Origin: Pseudomonas sp. R76
GTDB taxonomy: Bacteria; Pseudomonadota; Gammaproteobacteria; Pseudomonadales; Pseudomonadaceae
DNA: 64,000 bases
Reading direction: 5' to 3'
Assembly (NCBI RefSeq): GCF_009834565.1
Contig: NZ_CP019428.1
Location: forward strand, 4,030,001-4,094,000
This document shows, one piece after another, positions 48,371-62,558 of the stretch (its first letter is position 1; every line of letters starts with the position of its first letter). A program made the translations under genes and the position numbers. The notes beneath the pieces are model-generated. The model ran no database searches, was not told the DNA's origin, and was given only the letters and a program-made list of their open reading frames with translations.

Positions 48371-50908
48371 ATGAATGGAACATCCACCGGTAGCGAAGCC
48401 GCTGCATTGATTGCGCGGCTGGACTGGGCGCAAAGCCCCCTCGGTGAGGCCAATGAATGGCCGCAAAGCCTGCGCACAGCCGTCGATATCGTGGTGCACT
48501 CACCGATGCCGATGCTGTTGCTGTGGGGCAGCCAACTCACGCAGCTCTATAACGACGGCTTCGCCAAGCTCGCGGGCAACAAACACCCCACCGCGCTCGG
48601 CCAGCCGGCGCATGAGAGCTGGCCGGAACTGGCAAGCTTCACTGCGCCGGTCTACGACGCGGTCCTCGGCGGCGAGGTGCGCACGTTCAGCGAGCAGCGC
48701 TTCGTGCTGCAACGCAACCATCGCGACACCGAGATCTGGCTCGACCTGACCTACAGCCCGGTCCGCGACGAAAGCGGCACGGTGGCCGGCATCCTGGTCA
48801 CCGCCATCGAAACCAACGAACGCCGCAGCAAAGCCCTGGAACTGCAGCAGCGCTCCGAAGACAGCCTCAAGGCCCAGCACAACAGCGAGCAGCGCCTGCA
48901 ACTGGCACTGGCGGCGACGGACGCAGTCGGCACCTGGGACTGGGATATCGGCGAAGACCGCTTTATTGCCGACGCTCACTTCGCCTACCTGCACGGCGTT
49001 GACCCGAGTGACGCGGGGCTCTTGCCGATCAGCGAGTACCTGCAAGGCGTGCACCCTGAAGACCGTGGCATGGTGGCGCGCAGCATCAAGCATTGCATCA
49101 CCTTCGGCACCGAATACGCCGAGGAATACCGCCTGCTGCAAGCCGATGGCCAGGTGCGCTGGGTGTTTGCCCGGGGCCGTTGCTACAAGGACCAACATGG
49201 CCGCCCGGCGCGCTTTTTAGGCGCCGCGCTGGACCTGACCGAGCGCAAGCACACCGAGCAGGCCCTGCGCCAAAGCCAGACCGAGCTGCAGTTGATCATC
49301 AACGCCATGCCGGTGCTGATCGGCTATGTCGATCACGAACAGCGTTTTCGCCTGAACAACAGCGCGTACCTGGAGTGGTACGGCATGACGCCGCAAGAGC
49401 TGTACGGCAAGAGCATCCGCGAAGTGCTCGGTGATGAGGTGTATGCCGGGCGCGCCGACAAGATCGCCGCCGCGCTGCGCGGCAAGGCCTGCAGCTTTAT
49501 GACCATCACGCCGCACCACGACGGCCGGCCGCGCCATGCGTTGATGAAGTACCTGCCGCGCTTCAGCAATGACGGCTCGGTGAACGGTTTCTACATCTTT
49601 GTGATCGATGAGACCGAACGCAAACTCACCGAAGAAGCCCTGCGCCACCTCAATGAAAACCTCGAAGAACGCGTGGCCCAGCGCACCCAGGCGCTGGCCG
49701 AGGCCAACCAGCGCCTGCAAAACGAGATGTTCGAACGCGAGCGCGCCGAAGACGCGCTACGCCACGCGCAGAAGATGGAAGCGGTGGGCCAGCTCACCGG
49801 CGGCATCGCCCATGACTTCAACAATATGCTCACCGGGATTATCGGCAGCCTGGACCTGATGCAGCGCTACATCGCGGCCGGGCGCAGCGACGAAATCGGC
49901 CGGTTTACCGACGCGGCGGTGTCTTCCGCCCACCGCGCGGCCGCCCTCACCCACCGGCTGCTGGCGTTCTCGCGGCGCCAGTCGCTGGACCGACGCCCGC
50001 TGGACCCCAACCAGTTGGTGGCCTCGCTGGAAGACTTGTTCCGGCGTACCAAGGGCGCGCACATCACGCTCAAAGTGGAACTGGGCCGAGATATCTGGGC
50101 GGTGAACACCGACGCCAGCCAATTGGAAAACGCCCTGTTGAACCTGGTGATCAACGCGCGCGACGCCATGCCCGACGGCGGCGAATTGCTCATCGAAACC
50201 GCCAACAGTTACCTGGACGGCACCGACATCACCACGCTGGAACCGGTCAAGGCCGGCGATTATGTGATGCTCGGCGTGAGTGACAACGGCAGCGGCATGG
50301 CGCCGAAGATTCTGGCCAAGGCGTTCGACCCGTTTTTCACCACCAAGCCCATAGGCCAAGGCACTGGCCTTGGGTTGTCGATGATCTACGGGTTTGCCCA
50401 GCAATCCGGTGGCCACGTGACCATTCAAAGCGAGCCCGGCAAAGGCACCAGCGTGCGCCTGTACCTGCCGCGCCTGCATGGCACTGCGCTGGAAAGCAGC
50501 CTGCCGGCGCACATGAGCGAAGCCCCGCTGGCCCTGGCTGGCGAAGCCGTGGTGGTGGTCGAGGACGACCCCGCCGTGCGCATGCTGGTGGTCAATGTGC
50601 TGGATGAATTGGGCTACACCGCGCACCAGGCGGCGGATGCACGCACGGCACTGCCGTTGCTGGAGTCGGATTTGCGTGTGGACCTGCTGGTGACCGATGT
50701 CGGCCTGCCGGGCATGAACGGCCGCCAATTGGCGGAAATCGCCCGCCAGCACCGGCCCGGCCTGCAAGTGTTGTTCATGACCGGTTACGCCGAAAAAGCC
50801 GCCGAACGCCAGGGTTTCCTTGAAGACGGCATGGACATGGTGGCCAAGCCGTTCTCCATCGACCTGCTGGCGACGAAAATCCGCAGCATGATCAACGTTG
50901 ACGAATGA
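48371..50908 (+). CDS. Hybrid sensor histidine kinase with PAS domains and receiver
   Basis: 845 residues, no membrane segments, so cytoplasmic. Residues 15-150 are a PAS-like domain starting with the [19 protein letters not shown] motif found in many soluble kinases. PAS domains follow at 175-295 and 305-420, then a coiled coil ([19 protein letters not shown]). HisKA has His481 in [10 protein letters not shown], and the ATPase domain shows [16 protein letters not shown] and GTGLGLSM. A receiver domain has acceptor Asp776 in [12 protein letters not shown]. No response-regulator gene adjoins it, so output is probably via phosphotransfer. The 143 bp before it holds only its presumed promoter. 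Confidence 0.93.
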
Positions 50909-51384: not shown

Positions 51385-52290
51385 TCACCGCGCAATCAAA
51401 GCCCCGGGCACCTGAATCACCCGGCTCGCCAACCGATGCCCAGCCAAGGCCGCCTCCTCAGGTGACTGACCTTTCAGCCGACTGGCCAGATACGCCGCAC
51501 TGAACGAATCCCCCGCCGCCGTGGTGTCCACCACCTTCTCGACCTTCAACGCCGGTACGGCAAAACGCTCGCCGTCACAGCGGATCAAGCATTCATCTGC
51601 ACCGCGCTTGAGTACCACTTCGGCAATCGCCGGGTACGCCGCAAACACCTGTTCGCTGTCGGCATAGCCAAACAACGCACGTTCGTCGTCTTCGGTCAGC
51701 AAGGCGATATCCACCTCGGCCAACACCGCGTGATACGCCGCGCGCGCCGCTTCGACGCTGGCCCATAAACGCGGCCGGTAGTTATTGTCGAACACCACCT
51801 TGCCGCCGCGCCGGCGGGTTTCGATCAGGGTGTGCAGTAAACGCGCGCGCCCGACTTCACCGAGTACCGCCAGGGTGATGCCGCTGAAATACACCACGTC
51901 GTAACCCGGCAAAGCCGCCAGGATCGGCTCGGCGGCCGGGGTGGTGAAGCAGTCGCGCACGGCGGCTTCGTTGCGCCAGTAGAGGAATTTGCGCTCGCCG
52001 TTGGCGTCGGTCTGGATGCAGTACAAACCGGGTAGACGGCCGGGCAAGCGTTGGACCATGCCCAGGCCGAGGCCTTCGTCGGTCCATTGTTGGCACATGG
52101 CATCGCTGAAGCTGTCATCGCCCAGGGCGGTGACGTAGTCGACCGTGCCGACGCTGCCCAATTCGCGGCGCAGGTAGACGGCTGCGTTGAGGGTGTCGCC
52201 GCCGAAGCTCTGCTGCAGGCTGCCGTCGGCGCGGTGTTGGAGTTCGATCATGCATTCGCCGATGAGGGCGATGCGCGGTTGTGTGTTCAT
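51385..52290 (-). CDS. kdgK: 2-keto-3-deoxygluconate kinase (PfkB family)
   Basis: 301 residues from the ATG at 52290. Ribokinase-like sugar kinase with N-terminal IALIGECMIEL, a substrate-binding SFGGDTLNAAVYLRRE near 28-43 and the C-terminal PfkB motif DTTAAGDSFSAAY near 255-267 holding the catalytic Asp. GECMIEL and GGDTLNAA are typical of KDG kinases, which make 2-keto-3-deoxy-6-phosphogluconate for the Entner-Doudoroff pathway. It is the last gene of a minus-strand set with a DSD1-family lyase and IclR regulator. Confidence 0.88.
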   Translation of the reverse strand: MNTQPRIALIGECMIELQHRADGSLQQSFGGDTLNAAVYLRRELGSVGTVDYVTALGDDSFSDAMCQQWTDEGLGLGMVQRLPGRLPGLYCIQTDANGERKFLYWRNEAAVRDCFTTPAAEPILAALPGYDVVYFSGITLAVLGEVGRARLLHTLIETRRRGGKVVFDNNYRPRLWASVEAARAAYHAVLAEVDIALLTEDDERALFGYADSEQVFAAYPAIAEVVLKRGADECLIRCDGERFAVPALKVEKVVDTTAAGDSFSAAYLASRLKGQSPEEAALAGHRLASRVIQVPGALIAR

Positions 52291-52320
52291 GCCTGGGTCT
52301 CTCGGTGTTCTGGAGGGCCT

Positions 52321-52404
52321 CTTCGCGAGCAAGCCCGCTCCCACATTTGATTGCATTTCAACTGAAGGAACTCGGTCGAATGTGGGAGCGGGCTTGCTCG
52401 CGAA
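52321..52404. repeat. Outward-facing REP pair
   Basis: TTCGCGAGCAAGCCCGCTCCCACA and its complement face away from each other across about 36 bp, the reverse arrangement of the usual REPIN. It separates the lyase and kinase genes. Spacer text TTGCATTTCAACTGAAGGAA resembles that of the pair at 51294. Confidence 0.85.
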
Positions 52405-52418
52405 GGGCGCGACGCGGT

Positions 52419-53627
52419 TTAGAAACAGGTATGCAAGGACTCGATCACCTGCAACTGCTCATCCACCAGGCAGCCCACTTGCCATTTGTCGAAGGTCAGG
52501 CACGGGTGCGAGGTGCCGAAGGAGATGATGTCGCCGATACGCAGTTCAACCCCCGGCGCCACGCTCATGAACGCGTGCTGGTCCATCACTGCCGTGACCT
52601 TGCACGCGGTGACGTCATCGCCTTCGGCCGGCAGAATCCCGGCCTTGTAGCGCTTGAGCGGCACCGGCAGGCCGGCGTCGTAGGCGACGTCGCGCTTGCC
52701 CAGGGCAATCACCGCAAAGCCCGGCTCTGGCAACGATTGCACATGCGCCCAGACTTCCAGCGCCGGGCGCAGGCCTTCGTTGAGGTCGCTGCGGCGGTCG
52801 AGCACGCAGCATTGCGCTTCTTTATAGATGCCGTGGTCGTGGGCCACGTAGCTGCCAGGTCGCAGCACACTGAGGAAGCGGCCGGCAGCGTTTTGTGCTT
52901 CAAACGACTCGGCGATCAGGTCATACCAGGCCGAGCCCGAGGCGGTGATGATCGGCTTGGGCAGGTCGAAAGAACCATTGTTTTGCAGGTCCACTGCCAG
53001 ACGCACCAGGCTGGCGGCGAAGTCGCGGATGCCGCTGACGGCGTGTTCGCCGTGGATCACGCCTTCGTAGCCTTCAATACCGGTAAGGGCCAGGGCTGGC
53101 TGGGCCTTGATCGCCTTGGCCAGCTCGCGCACTTCCTGCTCACTGCGGCAACCGCAACGGCCGCCGACCACGCCGTACTCGATCATCACGTTCAGGCGCA
53201 GGCCGCGGGCGGCGAAGAACAGACCGAGGTCGGCGACGTTGTCCGGGTGATCGACCATGCAGTGGAAGTCAAAATCCTTGTCGGCCAACAAATCGGCAAT
53301 CAACGCCATGTTCGGCGCGCCGACCAGTTGGTTGGCCATCAATACGCGGCGCACGCCACCGGCATAAGCGGCGCGGGTTTGCACCGCGTTAGCCAGGGTG
53401 ATGCCCCAGGCGCCGGCTTCGATCTGGCGTTGGAACAGTGCCGGCATCATGCTGGTTTTGCCGTGGGGCGCGAGTTCTGCGCCGCTGTTGCTGACGAATG
53501 CCTGCATCCAGCGAATGTTGTGTTCCAGGGCGTCGCGGTGCAGCACCAGGGCCGGTAGGCTGACGTCGCGGACCAGGTGGGCGCCAACGGCGGCGGCGCC
53601 TTTTTCAACGGCATTGAGGGCAGACAT
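52419..53627 (-). CDS. PLP-dependent DSD1/D-threonine aldolase-family lyase (candidate D-glucosaminate dehydratase)
   Basis: 402 residues. Alanine-racemase-type barrel with PLP lysine Lys57 in APHGKTSMMP, GIEGYEG near 190, the phosphate-contacting ASGSAWYDL near 235 and a C-terminal beta domain with metal ligands in SFGTSHPCLTFDKW. The family includes D-serine dehydratase, D-threonine aldolase and, from Pseudomonas fluorescens, PLP-dependent D-glucosaminate dehydratase. Neighbouring KDG kinase favours the last: D-glucosaminate to 2-keto-3-deoxygluconate plus ammonia. Eight bp separate it from the IclR gene upstream. D-amino acid deaminase is the alternative. Confidence 0.85.
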   Translation of the reverse strand: MSALNAVEKGAAAVGAHLVRDVSLPALVLHRDALEHNIRWMQAFVSNSGAELAPHGKTSMMPALFQRQIEAGAWGITLANAVQTRAAYAGGVRRVLMANQLVGAPNMALIADLLADKDFDFHCMVDHPDNVADLGLFFAARGLRLNVMIEYGVVGGRCGCRSEQEVRELAKAIKAQPALALTGIEGYEGVIHGEHAVSGIRDFAASLVRLAVDLQNNGSFDLPKPIITASGSAWYDLIAESFEAQNAAGRFLSVLRPGSYVAHDHGIYKEAQCCVLDRRSDLNEGLRPALEVWAHVQSLPEPGFAVIALGKRDVAYDAGLPVPLKRYKAGILPAEGDDVTACKVTAVMDQHAFMSVAPGVELRIGDIISFGTSHPCLTFDKWQVGCLVDEQLQVIESLHTCF

Positions 53628-53635
53628 AAAAACTC

Positions 53636-54400
53636 CTATTCGTTGATGCGACGGGCCAGGTTGTTGGCGCTGTCGATCAACACCCGGCGATAGTCGTTGT
53701 AATTTTTAATCGCGTCGGCGCGCGGGGCGACGATGCACAAGGTTGCGATGCTGATGCCTTGCGCGTCCCGCACCGGGGCGGCGAAGCAATGGGTAAAGGT
53801 GTCGGCCACACTGTCGAAAGAGAAGAACCCGTCGAGGGTGGCCTGACGGATTTGCGCCAGGAACGTTTCCAACGGCAGGCGCTGGCCGTCCGGCAGGATG
53901 AAGTCGTCGTAGTCGATCAGGTCGATGATTTGCTGGTCACTCAAGTGCCCCAGCAGCAGGCGCCCGGAAGCTGTCCACGGGATTGGCGCGTTTTCGCCGA
54001 TGTCCGACGAGATGCGAAAATGCCGCTCGCCTTCGCGCATCAGCGCCACCGTATATTTGCGCCCGTTGAGCAGGCACATCTGCGCGGTTTCGTGGGTTTG
54101 GCTGACGATTTCCTGCAAGGCGTGGTCGGCCTCGCGGGTCAGGTCGAAATGGCGCAGGTGCGCCTGGCCGAGGAAGTACAGCTGGCGGCCGAGGTAGACG
54201 TGGCCGTCCTTGCCCACCGTTTCGAGGATGCGCCGTTCAAGCAACGAGGCGACCAGTTCGTAGACGGTGGATTTGGGGCTGCCGATGCCGCTGGCAATAT
54301 CATTCGGGCGCAGGGGCTGGCCGATTTCCTTGAGAAAATCGAGGATATCGAATGCACGGTCCAGTCCTTTGGCGCGGCGTTTGATGGTGTCTTCGGTCAT
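53636..54400 (-). CDS. IclR-family transcriptional regulator
   Basis: 254 residues from the ATG at 54400. Residues 10-70 form the winged helix-turn-helix (LDRAFDILDFLKEIGQPLRPNDIASGIGSPKSTVYELV), residues 80-250 the GAF-like effector domain (MCLLNGRKYTVALMREGERH, IPWTASGRLLLGHL). It is followed 8 bp later by the lyase gene and probably controls the cluster of lyase, kinase, RidA and ABC importer genes. A palindrome before the binding-protein gene is a candidate operator. Confidence 0.9.
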   Translation of the reverse strand: MTEDTIKRRAKGLDRAFDILDFLKEIGQPLRPNDIASGIGSPKSTVYELVASLLERRILETVGKDGHVYLGRQLYFLGQAHLRHFDLTREADHALQEIVSQTHETAQMCLLNGRKYTVALMREGERHFRISSDIGENAPIPWTASGRLLLGHLSDQQIIDLIDYDDFILPDGQRLPLETFLAQIRQATLDGFFSFDSVADTFTHCFAAPVRDAQGISIATLCIVAPRADAIKNYNDYRRVLIDSANNLARRINE

Positions 54401-54420
54401 GGCAGTAGTCGGTCTCTGTT

Positions 54421-54528
54421 GATCGTTCCCACGCTCTGCGTGGGAACGCATACCGTGACGCTCTGCGTCACAGAAGCGGACGCAGAGCGTCCAGGGCGGC
54501 GTTCCCACGCAGAGCGTGGGAACGATCG
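54421..54528. repeat. REP element, GTGGGAACGATC family
   Basis: Begins GATCGTTCCCACGCTCTGCG and ends GCAGAGCGTGGGAACGATCG, with internal GTGACGCTCTGCGTCAC and CGGACGCAGAGCGTCC palindromes. It lies between ridA-like and iclR-like genes of the same strand. Confidence 0.88.
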
Positions 54529-54543
54529 TTTAGGCAGCCATCT

Positions 54544-54930
54544 TTACTTCTTCTTGTAGGCCACGCAATCGATCTCGACCTTGCAGTCCACCATCATGTT
54601 GGCCTGCACACAGGCGCGCGCCGGGGCGTGTTCGGGGGTGAAGTATTCGCCGAAGACTTTGTTGAAACTCCAGAAGTCCCGTGGGTCTTCCAGCCATACA
54701 CCGACGCGCACCACGTCTTTGAGTTCGTAGCCGGCCTCTTCCAGAATCGCCACCACGTTGCGCATGGTCTGGCGGGTTTGCTCGACGATGCCGCCGTTGA
54801 TGATTTCACCGTCGACTGCCGGCACCTGGCCCGAGACGTAGAGCCAGCCGTCCGCTTCCACCGCGCGGGCGAAAGGACGAGGTTGGCCACCGCCGGCGGT
54901 GCTGCCGGTGCCGTAACGAGTAATGCTCAT
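54544..54930 (-). CDS. RidA-family imine/enamine deaminase
   Basis: 128 residues, complete RidA/YjgF/UK114 domain, normally a trimer that hydrolyses reactive enamines and imines such as 2-aminoacrylate. The key Arg105 is present in HAPARACVQA, with WLYVSGQVPAVDGEI near 29-43 and the C-terminal VEIDCVAYKKK. It directly follows the ABC transporter genes and lies near a PLP lyase whose product leaves as an enamine, so it probably speeds release of ammonia and protects PLP enzymes. Confidence 0.92.
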   Translation of the reverse strand: MSITRYGTGSTAGGGQPRPFARAVEADGWLYVSGQVPAVDGEIINGGIVEQTRQTMRNVVAILEEAGYELKDVVRVGVWLEDPRDFWSFNKVFGEYFTPEHAPARACVQANMMVDCKVEIDCVAYKKK

Positions 54931-54944
54931 AAAGTTGCTCCTGA

Positions 54945-55727
54945 TTAAAAACGAATGTTCTTCAAAAATTCCGCCAGGCGCGGCGATTGTGGGCGTTCGA
55001 AGATGTCTTTCGACGTGCCCTGCTCTTCAATGCGGCCCTGGTTCATGAATACGATCTTGTCCGACACTTCGTAGGCAAAACGCATTTCGTGGGTGACCAG
55101 CAACATGGTCATGCCCTCTTCCGCCAAGCCCTTGATCACGCTGAGCACTTCACCCACCAACTCGGGGTCGAGGGCCGAGGTGACTTCGTCGAACAGCATG
55201 AGGCTGGGGTTCATCGCAATCGCACGGGCAATCGCCACGCGCTGTTGCTGGCCGCCGGAGAGCTGGCCCGGGAAGTGGTTGCGCCGCTCCAGCAGGCCGA
55301 CGCGGTCCAGCCATTTTTCCGCCAGGGCCACGGCTTCGTCCTTGCCCATCTTCTTGACCTTGAGCAAGCCGAGGGTGACGTTTTGCAACGCGGTAAGGTG
55401 CGGGAACAGGTTGAATTGCTGGAACGCCATGCCGGTCATCGCGCGGTGCTGGGCAATCACGCGCTCGGGGTGACGCACGCGCTTGCCGGCGATTTCGCTG
55501 TAGCCGATGGACTCGCCGTCCAGGGTGATCTGGCCGCCCTGGAATTCTTCCAGCAGGTTGACGCAACGCAGCAGCGTGGTCTTGCCCGAGCCGCTGGAGC
55601 CGATCAACGTCACCACGTTGCCGCGCTGCATGGACAGGTCGACGCCCTTGAGCACTTCTACCTGGCCGTACTGTTTACGCAGGCCGCGAATGTTCAGCAG
55701 CGGTTGGTTAGTTTGAGGTTGGTTCAT
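54945..55727 (-). CDS. Polar amino acid ABC transporter ATP-binding protein
   Basis: 260 residues. ATPase of the GlnQ/HisP group: Walker [14 protein letters not shown] near 38-50, signature [16 protein letters not shown] near 155-170, Walker [15 protein letters not shown] near 175-188 and switch His in VTHEMRFA. It energises the two permeases encoded upstream. The ATG overlaps the permease stop by 4 bp, and ridA-like follows after 14 bp. Confidence 0.95.
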
Positions 55728-56386
55728 GGCAAGGCCACCCGCTTTTCAATGTAGCGCCCGAATAACTCGATGGCGTAGTTGATGACAAAGAACAGAAACC
55801 CGGCGAACAGGTAGAACTCCAGGGTCATGAAGGTACGCGCGATCACTTGCTGGGTGCTCAGCAGCAATTCAGCCACGCCGATCACCGAGAGCAAGGTCGA
55901 GGCCTTGACGATTTCCGTGGAGGAATTGACCCAGGTCGGCAGGATCTGGCGCAACGCTTGAGGCAACAGCACGTAGCCCAGGGATTGGTAGAACGTCAGG
56001 CCAATCGCCTTGCCCGCTTCCAGTTGCCCGCGGGGAATGGCTTGCAGCGCACCGCGCACGATTTCCGAGACGTGGGAGCCGCAAAACAGTGTCAGCCCGA
56101 CGGCGCCAGCCTGAAACGCGGTGATCTGCCAACCCAGCGCCGGCAGCATGTAGAAACACGCCAACACCAGCACAAACACCGGCGTGCCACGGATCAGGTC
56201 GACATACAGACGAAACGGCGCGCGCATCCAGAACTTGCCGTAGGTCAGGATCAACCCGGCGACAATGCCGATCAGCGTACCGAATATAATCGCCAGCGCA
56301 GACACATACACGCTGGCCTGAAAGCCCGCCCACAGGGTGTCCCGGGCGATCCACAACTCATGCAACCAGCTGGGGGATTCGTACAT
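55724..56386 (-). CDS. Polar amino acid ABC transporter permease (second)
   Basis: 220 residues of the HisM/GlnP group with about five membrane segments. The [13 protein letters not shown] motif near 72 and the EAA-type loop [19 protein letters not shown] near 120-138 are typical. It pairs with the permease encoded 12 bp upstream to form a heterodimer in the inner membrane. Confidence 0.93.
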
Positions 56387-56397
56387 GGAAACCCTCC

Positions 56398-57060
56398 TTA
56401 ACGACGGATCGCCAGACGCTGTTCCAGGTAACGGAGCAGCATGGCAATGAGGTAACAGGCAGCCACGTAGAGCGCAGTCGTGACCAGCCAGGTTTCAATC
56501 ACCCGGTAGCTTTCGACGTTGATCTTGCGGGCGTAGTAGGTCAGCTCCGGCACGGCAATCGCAGCCGCCAGCGAGGTGTCCTTGAACAGCGAGATAAAGT
56601 TGTTCGACAGCGCCGGCAACACGTTGCGCAGCATCACCGGCACGGTGATATAGGCGCGGATACGCCACTCGCCCAAGCCAATCGCCAAACCTGCTTCACG
56701 CAAGCCCTTGGGGATATTCAACAGCCCGGCGCGGAACACTTCGGTGAGGTAGGCACCGGCGTACAGCGACAAGGTGATGATGAACGAGGGAATTTTGTCG
56801 AGACGAATCCCCAATGACGGCAGTGCAAAGTAGATCAACAAGATCAGCACGAGGATCGGCGTATTGCGGATCACCGTCACATACACCGAGGCGAAGACTC
56901 GCAACGCGCGGTGTTTGGACAACATGGCAAACGCCATCATCAAACCGATCACGCAGCCAATCGCGATCGACAGCAGCGCCAGCTCAAGGCCCAGGCCGAG
57001 CCCCGCCAGCAAGCTGGGGAAGTCACGCCACACGGCGGCAAAGTTCAACTGATAGTTCAT
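56398..57060 (-). CDS. Polar amino acid ABC transporter permease (first)
   Basis: 220 residues, five membrane segments, with VTVIRNTPILVLILLIYFALP near 60-80 and the EAA loop AGLLNIPKGLREAGLAIGLGE near 111-131. It lies between the binding-protein gene (52 bp upstream) and the second permease, in one minus-strand operon. Confidence 0.93.
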   Translation of the reverse strand: MNYQLNFAAVWRDFPSLLAGLGLGLELALLSIAIGCVIGLMMAFAMLSKHRALRVFASVYVTVIRNTPILVLILLIYFALPSLGIRLDKIPSFIITLSLYAGAYLTEVFRAGLLNIPKGLREAGLAIGLGEWRIRAYITVPVMLRNVLPALSNNFISLFKDTSLAAAIAVPELTYYARKINVESYRVIETWLVTTALYVAACYLIAMLLRYLEQRLAIRR

Positions 57061-57112
57061 GGTCGGCAGTACCTGATTGGGGCGCCGTCAGGGGCGCCCC
57101 AGGGTTTACGAT

Positions 57113-57961
57113 TTACTTGAACTCAACCGGGAAACCGATCGCTGGTTCTGGCAAATCCACGCCGAACCATTGCTTGAACGAGGCCTTGTAGGTGGGGAAT
57201 TCCACACCGGTCATGGCTTCATGCAACGCGGTGTTGACGAAGTTCAGCCAGTCCTGATCGCCACGCTTGACCGCGCACGCGTAGGTTTGCGGGCTCCAGG
57301 CGTAGGTCGGGCTGCGGTAGCGGCCGGGGTTCTGCACCATCAGGTACTTGACCGAGGATTGGTCGGTGGCGGCGGCATCGGCGCGTCCGGAGTTCACGGC
57401 CTGGTACATCAGGTCGACGCTGTCGTATTGGTCGACCTTGGCTTTGGGCAATGCCTGGTGCACCAGCTCTTCGGCGTAAACGTTTTGCAGCACGGCCACG
57501 GTGACGCTGTCGCCTGCGGCTTGCAGGTCTTCGATTTCCTTGTACTTGCTGTTGTTCGGCAACAGCAGGCCCACGCCTTCGCGGTAGTACGGCAAGGTAA
57601 ATGCAACTTGCTGCGCACGGCTGGCGGTGACGGTGATGAACTGGCAACTCATGTCGACCTTGTCGGTCAGCAGGTTGGGAATACGTGCGTCAGACGACTG
57701 CACCACAAACTCAACCTTGCTCGGGTCATTGAACAGACCCTTGGCGACGATACGGCCGATGTCGATATCAAAACCCTGCAACTTGCCATCCGCTCCCTGG
57801 AAGTGCCACGGCGCATTGGTACTGCCTGTACCCACGATGAGATGCCCACGCTTGAGCACATCATCGAGCTTGCTGTCCGCCGCCTGCACTACGCTTGCGA
57901 GGGAAGCCGATGCGGCGAAGAGAAAAACACACGCTTTGAACACGGAAGGTCGGTGATGCAT
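57113..57961 (-). CDS. Periplasmic amino-acid-type solute-binding protein
   Basis: 282 residues from the ATG at 57961 (GGAG upstream). Signal peptide to about residue 27 (cleavage after VQA), then a family 3 binding protein: LDDVLKRGHLIVGTGSTNAPWHF, GFDIDIGRIVAKGLF, FVVQSSDARIPNLLTDKVDM and PYYREGVGLLL. It would capture the substrate in the periplasm for the two permeases. It is the first gene of the importer, RidA operon; the context suggests an amino sugar acid such as D-glucosaminate, or D-amino acids. Confidence 0.9.
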   Translation of the reverse strand: MHHRPSVFKACVFLFAASASLASVVQAADSKLDDVLKRGHLIVGTGSTNAPWHFQGADGKLQGFDIDIGRIVAKGLFNDPSKVEFVVQSSDARIPNLLTDKVDMSCQFITVTASRAQQVAFTLPYYREGVGLLLPNNSKYKEIEDLQAAGDSVTVAVLQNVYAEELVHQALPKAKVDQYDSVDLMYQAVNSGRADAAATDQSSVKYLMVQNPGRYRSPTYAWSPQTYACAVKRGDQDWLNFVNTALHEAMTGVEFPTYKASFKQWFGVDLPEPAIGFPVEFK

Positions 57962-61052: not shown

Positions 61053-62033
61053 TCAAGACTTTCGCGTTGCATCATCCAGCGCCAAAATCGTGTGCGCATT
61101 CGTCACCGTCGTCGCCAGCGTATTAATCACCCCCGAGCGCAACGCCCCTAAGGTCGCCGCCGCCTTGGTGTTCTCACTGGCAATCGCCACCACATCCGGA
61201 ATGCGAAACAACTCCTGCACCGTCAGCCCGATCACCCGCCCCTGAATAGCGTTGACCGCCGGCTGCCCGTGTATGTCGATAAAGTCATAGCCCATCATGT
61301 CGCCCACCGTACCGGACAACCGCGCCTGGGCAATTTCCTGCGGCGAAAACCAGCCCATGCGCACCATGTTGCTGTTCTCGCTCATGTCACCAATGCCGAT
61401 CAGCGCAATGTCCGCCCGCCGCGCCCGATCCAGGGTCGAGCGCACCGTGTCATTGTTGATCAACACCCCACGCAATTCCGGGTTTGCCACCAGCGCCGGG
61501 GCGTACAGGCTTTCACTCTCGCCACCAAAGCGCAGGGCCAGGCGCCGGCAGATATGGTCGGGGTTCATGTACTCGCCAGCCTTGAGCGAACCGCCGATAG
61601 CACAGACAAAGGTACAATTGCGCGTTACCGGCAAAAACACGTTATCCGCTACCGCCCCGACGTTACGCCCCATACCGACAGCGACGATCATGCCGTCACT
61701 CAGGGTTTTATTCAGGTAGTTGGCCACCAGGCTGGCCACCGCCGAGCGCTGGGTGTCGGGGTCGCTGTGGTCGACGGCAATCAACGCGCGATCAAGTTTG
61801 AAACGCTGCACCAGCGCCTGCTCAAGCTCGTTGTTCATCGCCGGGTGCTGCAACACGCGCACCTCGACAATCCCTTCATCGCGCGCACGTTTGAGCAGGC
61901 GGCTGACTTTCGCGCGTGACAGGTCGAAGCGTTTGGCAATGGCCTCCTGAGTGACGTTCTCGAGGTAATAGAGCATCGCCACTTCGGTCATCTGATCGAT
62001 ATCGCTGGCGATGCGCTGGGTACTGTCACTCAT
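61053..62033 (-). CDS. SorC-family sugar-responsive transcriptional regulator
   Basis: 326 residues from the ATG at 62033. Residues 15-60 are the helix-turn-helix (MLYYLENVTQEAIAKRFDLSRAKVSRLLKRA). Residues 65-320 are the SorC/DeoR-type sugar-phosphate-binding domain with VAVGMGRNVGAVADN and DIALIGIGDMSENSNMV. It lies 63 bp after the RpiB-family gene on the same strand and divergent from a sugar ABC transporter, which it probably represses until its sugar phosphate appears. EryD of Brucella erythritol catabolism is of this family. Confidence 0.9.
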   Translation of the reverse strand: MSDSTQRIASDIDQMTEVAMLYYLENVTQEAIAKRFDLSRAKVSRLLKRARDEGIVEVRVLQHPAMNNELEQALVQRFKLDRALIAVDHSDPDTQRSAVASLVANYLNKTLSDGMIVAVGMGRNVGAVADNVFLPVTRNCTFVCAIGGSLKAGEYMNPDHICRRLALRFGGESESLYAPALVANPELRGVLINNDTVRSTLDRARRADIALIGIGDMSENSNMVRMGWFSPQEIAQARLSGTVGDMMGYDFIDIHGQPAVNAIQGRVIGLTVQELFRIPDVVAIASENTKAAATLGALRSGVINTLATTVTNAHTILALDDATRKS

Positions 62034-62096
62034 GGGGACGGGCTTCCGTTTCGGCGTCAAAGGCGCATTCTCCCGACTCTTGCCCCGTTCCGTCCA

Positions 62097-62558
62097 CTAT
62101 TGATGCCCATCGCGTTCGATCGCATTGATACGCGCCACCTTGGCCCCGGAACGCGCCGCCTCGAACTCAGAGGCCAGAAACGCGGTGACGATGCTTTTGG
62201 CCAGCTCGGCGCCGACCACCCGCGCGCCGATGGACAGGATCTGCGCATCGTTACTCTTGCGCGCGCGCTCCGCAGAATAGGTGTCATGCGCCTGCGCGGC
62301 GCGAATACCCAGCACTTTGTTGGCCGAGATGGCCATGCCAATCCCGGTGCCGCACACCAGCACGCCCAGGCGTTGCTGCCCGGCGTTAATGGCAGTGGCC
62401 ACGGCCAGGGCGATGTCCGGGTACAGCACCGGCGCCGTGGAGTGGGTGCCGAAGTCGGTCACCGGATAACCCAACGCCTCGATATGGCGCTTCAACAGCT
62501 CTTTGAGCTCAAAACCCGCTTCATCGCATCCGATAGCCACCGGGAAAGGTGTGTTCAT
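62097..62558 (-). CDS. rpiB: RpiB/LacAB-family sugar-phosphate isomerase
   Basis: 153 residues. The family interconverts aldose and ketose phosphates. N-terminal GCDEAGFELKELLKRH near 10-25 is the usual phosphate region, Cys69 in VCGTGIGMAIS is the catalytic base and HDTYSAERARKSNDAQILSIGARVVG follows. In E. coli RpiB the latter reads with His before NDAN; here Ser-Asn-Asp-Ala-Gln is found, as in members acting on tetrose phosphates. With a SorC regulator and a sugar importer beside it, an unusual sugar or tetritol substrate is as likely as ribose 5-phosphate. Confidence 0.88.
   Translation of the reverse strand: MNTPFPVAIGCDEAGFELKELLKRHIEALGYPVTDFGTHSTAPVLYPDIALAVATAINAGQQRLGVLVCGTGIGMAISANKVLGIRAAQAHDTYSAERARKSNDAQILSIGARVVGAELAKSIVTAFLASEFEAARSGAKVARINAIERDGHQ

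Follow-up and report, generated by a model that had tools for sequence, protein, structure and literature searches.

Organisation of the locus

We analysed a gene cluster of Pseudomonas sp. R76 that is a candidate operon for uptake and catabolism of D-glucosaminate (2-amino-2-deoxy-D-gluconate). It lies in a 64,000-nucleotide stretch of contig NZ_CP019428.1 (positions 4,030,001 to 4,094,000; this whole stretch is hereafter the window) of a 6.83 Mb genome in 2 contigs, and consists of eight open reading frames (ORFs), all on the minus strand between positions 51385 and 57961. An earlier interpretation made from the letters alone (the sequence-only reading) had placed here, at the same positions, a polar amino acid ABC transporter, a RidA protein, an IclR regulator, a DSD1-family lyase and a PfkB kinase on one strand, and the ORFs with their Pfam and NCBIfam assignments bear out this gene list. 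Read from 57961 to 51385, the cluster starts with an amino-acid ABC importer composed of a periplasmic binding protein (57113..57961; SBP_bac_3 in Pfam), two permeases of the polar amino-acid type (56398..57060 and 55724..56386) and an ATPase of the GlnQ/EhuA/HisP kind (54945..55727). There follow a RidA-type protein of 128 residues (54544..54930; PF01042), a regulator of 254 residues (53636..54400) that matched IclR in Pfam and scored below every NCBIfam equivalog cut-off, a DSD1/OngC-type lyase of 402 residues using pyridoxal phosphate (PLP) (52419..53627; PF01168 and PF14031) and a PfkB kinase of 301 residues (51385..52290). The permeases and the ATPase were assigned by both Pfam and NCBIfam.

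The genes from the binding protein to RidA are nearly touching, with intergenic distances of -4 to 52 bp. Further on, 143 bp (54401..54543) separate RidA from the IclR start, 8 bp the IclR gene from the lyase gene and 128 bp (52291..52418) the lyase from the kinase gene, the two larger gaps each containing a repeat-type palindrome. Start codons were corrected for the IclR gene (ATG at 54400) and the kinase gene (ATG at 52290); in the longer ORFs the stretch 5′ of the corrected ATG is mostly palindromic repeat. A similar repeat is found just past 51385, after the kinase gene, and the window contains GTGGGAGC 14 times on one strand and 12 times on the other. Scans of the locus gave 1 promoter site, fewer than in shuffled sequences (2.1), and 10 terminators with no clear excess over shuffles (8.7). 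The eight genes probably form one transcription unit.

The lyase is of the OngC type

Both PF01168 and PF14031 score above the Pfam cut-offs in the lyase, which shares its fold with DSD1 and other PLP lyases. Its PLP lysine (Lys57) and metal motif (His374-Pro375-Cys376), which the sequence-only reading had pointed out (the latter as an SHPC site) together with Arg105 of RidA, are all present in the translated products. Across an alignment of 47 sequences, among them the window's and that of a Pseudoalteromonas locus (L171), Lys57 and His374-Pro-Cys376 do not vary. Structures compared were 3gwq of Burkholderia xenovorans, whose D-serine deaminase function is 'putative' by its own title, the D-threonine aldolases 4v15 and 7dib and the chicken D-serine dehydratase 3anu. 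The metal pair is His-Cys in dehydratases and His-Asp in D-threonine aldolase, including 4v15 (PMC4401734). The window lyase has His374-Pro-Cys376, the residues being matched through the shared C-terminal PF14031 motif. With this His-Cys pair, the lyase was rejected as a D-threonine aldolase proper.

OngC belongs to the ong cluster of Pseudoalteromonas prydzensis ACAM 620, in which OngB deacetylates N-acetylglucosaminate (GlcNAc1A) to glucosaminate (GlcN1A), OngC converts the latter to 2-keto-3-deoxy-D-gluconate (KDG) and ammonia, and KdgK phosphorylates KDG to KDG-6-P (2-keto-3-deoxy-6-phosphogluconate, KDPG). The RidA protein OngD is essential, in a role given as unknown, and deletion of ongB, ongC, ongD or kdgK abolished growth on GlcNAc1A (PMC9537276). 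In our comparisons the P. prydzensis OngC was represented by lyases of co-linear clusters in other Pseudoalteromonas; a plasmid collection (19 records, 8 examined) gave relatives. Two of them (L171 and L152) carry lyase-RpiR-deacetylase-RidA-symporter-kinase-GH20 in this order, co-linear with the published ong cluster. The window lyase is 45% identical to that of L171 over 387 residues, its RidA 56% over 111 and its kinase 37% over 299, and the RidA and KDG-kinase-type genes adjoin the window lyase as members of an ong core. Bridging clusters were found within Pseudomonas (L048, L058 and L059), with symporter-RidA-OngB-RpiR and lyase-kinase; their lyases are 54-55% and their kinases 55-59% identical to the window's. 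In the lyase tree, the ong clade and the larger clade of the window lyase are sisters at a fork of 93/80 support, not starred.

Among the 120 matches listed, all named close relatives of the lyase come from Pseudomonas, as do the named loci with the same cluster, and these relatives are mostly labelled 'amino acid deaminase' or D-serine deaminase-like. P. fluorescens FW300-N2E3 has the cluster (L087), and pools of barcoded transposon mutants are available for this strain (PMC9007349). In one other genome of the genus (G124) the lyase matched in two overlapping pieces and this copy may be broken.

The lyase and kinase genes are coupled throughout the genus

We surveyed 149 genomes of the genus with cut-offs of E<=1e-20 for the lyase and E<=1e-30 for the kinase. 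The lyase was present in 92 and the kinase in 85; 84 genomes had both, eight the lyase alone, one the kinase alone and 56 neither. In the sole kinase-only genome (G035) the contig stops just past the kinase (L149). Of the genomes having both, 82 of 84 (all but G051 and G131) place the kinase gene directly downstream of the lyase gene and in the same orientation, with a median of 127 bp between them, so the arrangement is not due to chance. The Fisher value for co-occurrence, 5e-31, ignores genome relatedness and was not used as evidence. In a class-wide survey, the lyase was found at 1e-20 in 7 of 274 genomes.

We then took as window-type the 66 loci whose lyase is at least 70% identical to the window's, 61 of them with 5 kb on both sides. 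In these 61, a biased sample that includes loci picked as odd and in which at least L122 and L159 represent one and the same genome, RidA was found in 59, IclR in 53, the kinase in 48 and the importer in 47. Window-type loci can thus lack the importer or the kinase separately, and RidA is rarely absent. Window-type importer, RidA, IclR and lyase also occur with an OngB-like deacetylase and no KDG kinase nearby in P. oryzihabitans and Pseudomonas sp. EpS/L25 (L132 and L122).

Two further loci of the window may be mentioned. Convergent with the cluster, a plus-strand gene (48371-50908) encodes a PAS hybrid histidine kinase with a receiver domain, and similar hybrid kinases adjoin the lyases of two other loci (L055 and L056). 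Another sugar locus lies near the window end, where the minus strand (61053-62558) encodes a Sugar-bind (PF04198) regulator and a LacAB_rpiB isomerase.

A predicted route from D-glucosaminate to KDPG

The genes with their motifs, order and conservation, the homology to a tested pathway and the presence of an Eda gene are the direct basis for our interpretation of the locus as a D-glucosaminate uptake and catabolism operon, to which we give a probability of roughly 0.8. Glucosaminate, an oxidation product of the chitin sugar glucosamine, is an alpha-amino acid whose side chain resembles a sugar, and the ABC importer would take it up as such. The PLP- and metal-dependent lyase, our proposed D-glucosaminate dehydratase (deaminating), would eliminate the 3-hydroxyl as water to give an enamine, and RidA, as an enamine/imine deaminase, would speed hydrolysis of the imine tautomer to KDG and ammonia. 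The kinase is the presumptive KDG kinase that would form KDPG, and the Entner-Doudoroff aldolase Eda, encoded elsewhere, would split KDPG into pyruvate and glyceraldehyde-3-phosphate. Glucosaminate would be the preferred substrate of the window lyase. For relatives of these proteins, others have shown the conversion of glucosaminate to KDG and ammonia by OngC, that of KDG to KDPG by KdgK and the requirement for OngD (PMC9537276).

Such a route, with uptake, dehydration, a RidA step and phosphorylation, was proposed in the sequence-only reading and is now supported as the main function by the tested ong pathway, the identities of 45, 56 and 37% and the genus-wide coupling of lyase and kinase. 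The locus had also been called a candidate complete one; it is not complete because the KDPG aldolase and any deacetylase are encoded elsewhere. The Eda gene lies at G000:C1:5351206-5351808. The same genome has a membrane pyrroloquinoline quinone (PQQ) dehydrogenase of the glucose/quinate family (1447077-1449443), whose family model does not distinguish glucose and quinate enzymes; it could oxidise glucosamine in the periplasm. This family was matched in 79 of the 84 genomes with lyase and kinase.

Arg115 and Asp200 of the binding protein align with those of ancestral amino-acid binders and are presumably the residues binding the alpha-carboxylate and the alpha-amino group in this family. Operon context and family suggest glucosaminate as the substrate of the importer. 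The IclR protein is likely the local switch of the cluster. GapMind reportedly lists an ABC transporter of FW300-N2E3 (near AO353_21710 to 21725) for D-glucosamine, a listing not encountered in the accessible text of PMC9007349 and PMC11378808 and not used as evidence here; if it is correct, fitness data have already identified the importer. At a locus from a genome of the same taxonomic order (L189), lyase, IclR and an ABC importer 57-64% identical to the window's lie beside RpiR, OngB, RidA and a symporter, both transport systems thus standing together.

General D-amino-acid catabolism as an alternative

Several observations weigh against D-glucosaminate as the substrate, and a number of them would suit another explanation: the importer would bring in D-serine or D-threonine, the lyase would turn them by deamination into pyruvate or 2-oxobutyrate, RidA would clear the 2-aminoacrylate formed and the kinase would be a bystander. 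OngC itself also deaminates D-serine and D-threonine, so both are conceivable substrates here (PMC9537276). The importer is of the amino-acid type, and no DsdA-type D-serine dehydratase scored above its cut-off in this genome, whose D-serine enzyme the lyase could therefore be. RidA is a tighter partner of the lyase than the kinase in the 61 window-type loci, and eight of the 92 lyase-bearing genomes are without the kinase at E<=1e-30. Among these kinase-less loci, L047 and L146 retain importer, RidA and IclR, L045, L055, L056 and L147 retain RidA only, and L145 and L148 lack all three in the vicinity of the lyase. More remotely, 26 loci of Halomonadaceae and Rhodanobacter carry a related lyase and, by the threshold applied, KdgK is absent from the surrounding 9 kb in all of them.

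Family scores also fall short. The window kinase reaches 381.4 bits with the NCBIfam KdgK model NF052444 (cut-off 400), which gives 403.5 bits for the Pseudomonas L048 kinase and only 244.7 for that of the Pseudoalteromonas ong-type cluster L171. The KDG-kinase motifs claimed from the letters alone are thus backed by similarity, with the structure 3lhx, named ketodeoxygluconokinase, as best-scoring match (299 bits), but the KdgK cut-off was missed and 8iwl, named 'uncharacterized sugar kinase YdjH', is nearly equal (295 bits). RidA scored 97.2 bits with TIGR00004, below the cut-off of 106.25; it keeps Arg105, which we take to be the catalytic residue. On the supply side, the PQQ dehydrogenase family went unmatched in five of the 84 genomes, and periplasmic oxidation of glucosamine by this enzyme therefore cannot supply the substrate in all of them. 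Phenotypes in the genus speak for glucosaminate in that both D-glucosamine and D-glucosaminic acid are used by P. canadensis (PMC5817194) and D-glucosaminic acid by P. chlororaphis S1Bt23; that the latter strain also uses D-serine and D-threonine weighs on the other side (PMC11372166). Close relatives of the window lyase are recorded from P. chlororaphis, a correspondence at species level that does not tie the phenotypes of P. canadensis and S1Bt23 to the cluster.

We nevertheless regard general D-amino-acid catabolism as improbable. It leaves the kinase as a bystander, which is unlikely given its adjacency to the lyase in nearly all genomes having both, and the window kinase is the sole match at E<=1e-30 in its genome. 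Nor would it explain the pairing of this lyase family with kinases for KDG or 2-keto-3-deoxygalactonate (KDGal) and with aldolases from more than one family in other lineages, as in Vibrio (L153), Cupriavidus (L155) and Klebsiella (L154). In one genome of the genus (G052) the kinase match contains an in-frame TAG and this copy may be broken.

Possible remote parts of an oxidative-chitin route

The genome also encodes an OngB-like deacetylase (G000:C1:5699110-5700531; L142), 1.6 Mb from the cluster and adjoined by a GntP permease 72% identical to that of L053. The deacetylase is 61% identical to that of L048, 55% to that of L171 and 72% to the one that P. oryzihabitans and Pseudomonas sp. EpS/L25 carry beside importer, RidA, IclR and lyase. 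Elsewhere, a protein of the LPMO_10 family (PF03067; 4785788-4786378; L194) represents an AA10-type lytic polysaccharide monooxygenase (LPMO). These genes are possible remote parts of an oxidative-chitin route split over the genome, in which GntP and the deacetylase would make glucosaminate in the cell from GlcNAc1A and the window locus would finish its degradation. Such a two-locus route adds to the glucosaminate operon and does not exclude it, but we hold it for rather unlikely: the deacetylase lies outside the cluster, D-aminoacylases acting on N-acyl-D-amino acids are among its relatives (PMC9537276), the window importer would then need another substrate, and the LPMO_10 protein may act on a substrate other than chitin.

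The same lyase family in galacto-type clusters

Among 145 lyase loci, KdgK was found within 9 kb of the lyase in 65, DgoK in six and neither, by the thresholds used, in 74; 112 had RidA. Two other loci (L144 and L150) were left out of consideration. In four of the 74 (L155, L158, L187 and L190) a divergent gene resembling that of a KDG kinase immediately adjoins the lyase, accompanied by Eda in three cases, and at some loci a PfkB protein 26-29% identical does not adjoin the lyase. DgoK was found at L050 (Pseudomonas sp. M30-35), L154 (Klebsiella), L172, L173, L162 and L164. All six kinases match the Pfam DGOK family far over the cut-off, while NCBIfam had no family for those of L154 and L162, and all six loci encode an aldolase similar to DgoA, an assignment that NCBIfam confirmed at L050 and L154. 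The M30-35 cluster (L050:9223-16606) comprises lyase, deacetylase, RidA, sodium symporter, DgoK, DgoA and RpiR, as do L154, L172 and L173. Lyases of this type form one separate clade with 100/100 support (L050, L172, L154 and L170), three of the four rows having DgoK and one being cut off by the record end; those of L162 and L164 lie apart from it, the latter on a long branch. A phylum-wide survey with the M30-35 lyase gave matches at 1e-60 in 44 of 398 genomes; the neighbourhoods of 33 of the 44 were examined after the survey, and those of four others and the own one before it.

These genes suggest that the M30-35-type cluster (L050, L154, L172 and L173) is a galactosaminate, or N-acetylgalactosaminate, counterpart. 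A literature search on galactosaminate gave no paper on bacterial catabolism, judged by title. The Klebsiella ong clusters with 'kdgA' (PMC9537276) may be of this galacto type. Could the window lyase, then, serve a different 2-amino-2-deoxy-aldonate, such as galactosaminate or mannosaminate? Related lyases do adjoin DgoK and DgoA, and an enzyme that removes the C3 hydroxyl need not read C4. For the window we consider this very improbable: its kinase is of the KdgK (gluco) kind, the M30-35-type lyases stand in their own well-supported clade, and one genome (G041) carries both types, window-type with KdgK (L049) and galacto-type (L050).

Taken together, we tentatively propose, at somewhat less than even odds for the whole, that lyase and RidA are the fixed heart of modular pathways for 2-amino-2-deoxy-sugar acids, around which importer, regulator, deacetylase, kinase and aldolase would be exchanged. 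The kinase/aldolase pair would tell the sugar, KdgK with Eda standing for glucosaminate and DgoK with DgoA for galactosaminate; the 26 Halomonadaceae and Rhodanobacter loci, eight of them with symporter, RidA and deacetylase and none with KdgK nearby by the threshold applied, count against a pure kinase rule. In the same proposal, the galacto version with lyase, deacetylase, RidA, symporter, DgoK and DgoA (M30-35, Klebsiella and relatives) would be an undescribed N-acetylgalactosaminate pathway, and the glucosaminate operon with the remote deacetylase, GntP and AA10-type LPMO a split oxidative-chitin pathway of Pseudomonas sp. R76. A rule by which kinase type predicts sugar makes several clusters testable, and the possible galactosaminate pathway, although a by-product, may matter more than the glucosaminate locus itself.

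Comparison with known systems

The D-glucosaminate dehydratase of Pseudomonas fluorescens (EC 4.3.1.9) belongs to the same genus, carries out the reaction proposed here and depends on PLP and metal; a literature search for this enzyme gave no useful report and no sequence for comparison. Another known system deaminates phosphorylated glucosaminate straight to the phosphorylated keto acid and therefore needs no KDG kinase. Genes for glucosaminate degradation are known, by annotation only, in Ralstonia eutropha (H16_B1211-B1213; PMC3734047), with a similar annotation for Cupriavidus necator JMP134 (PMC2842291). A Cupriavidus relative (L155) has lyase, kinase and eda in a row. It differs from the window locus in that Eda belongs to the cluster, GntP and RpiR take the place of the ABC importer and IclR, a deacetylase is present, and the kinase is divergent, with 29% identity to the Pseudoalteromonas one.

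With the ong pathway the window shares an OngC-type lyase, an OngD-type RidA and a KdgK-type PfkB kinase, and thus the predicted course from glucosaminate through KDG to KDPG. The ong clusters additionally have a TonB receptor, the GH20 protein OngA, the sodium symporter OngIT, the RpiR-type regulator OngR and the deacetylase OngB, in place of which the window has an ABC importer and IclR. Neither OngB nor the SSS symporter, RpiR, GH20 and TonB receptor proteins of L048 and L171 had a match at 1e-8 among the 213 window ORFs of at least 85 residues. In the accessible text of PMC9537276, a cluster counts as ong if four or more ong genes occur together, a number that the window cluster would not reach with its three ong-type genes, and ong clusters with LPMO are reported from terrestrial Pseudomonas. 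The pseudomonad layout, a deacetylase-free cluster with ABC importer and IclR, was not encountered in the literature, as far as its accessible text goes.

Our analysis gives a likely substrate and pathway to a lyase whose named close relatives, among the matches listed, are mostly called amino acid or D-serine deaminase-like. Glucosaminate use would then reach beyond ong-type chitin eaters into many pseudomonads (the 84 of 149 genomes with lyase and kinase), with another importer and switch. The enzyme chemistry has been published for chitin eaters from the sea; new, as far as the accessible reports go, are the pseudomonad importer, the switch and the deacetylase-free cluster.

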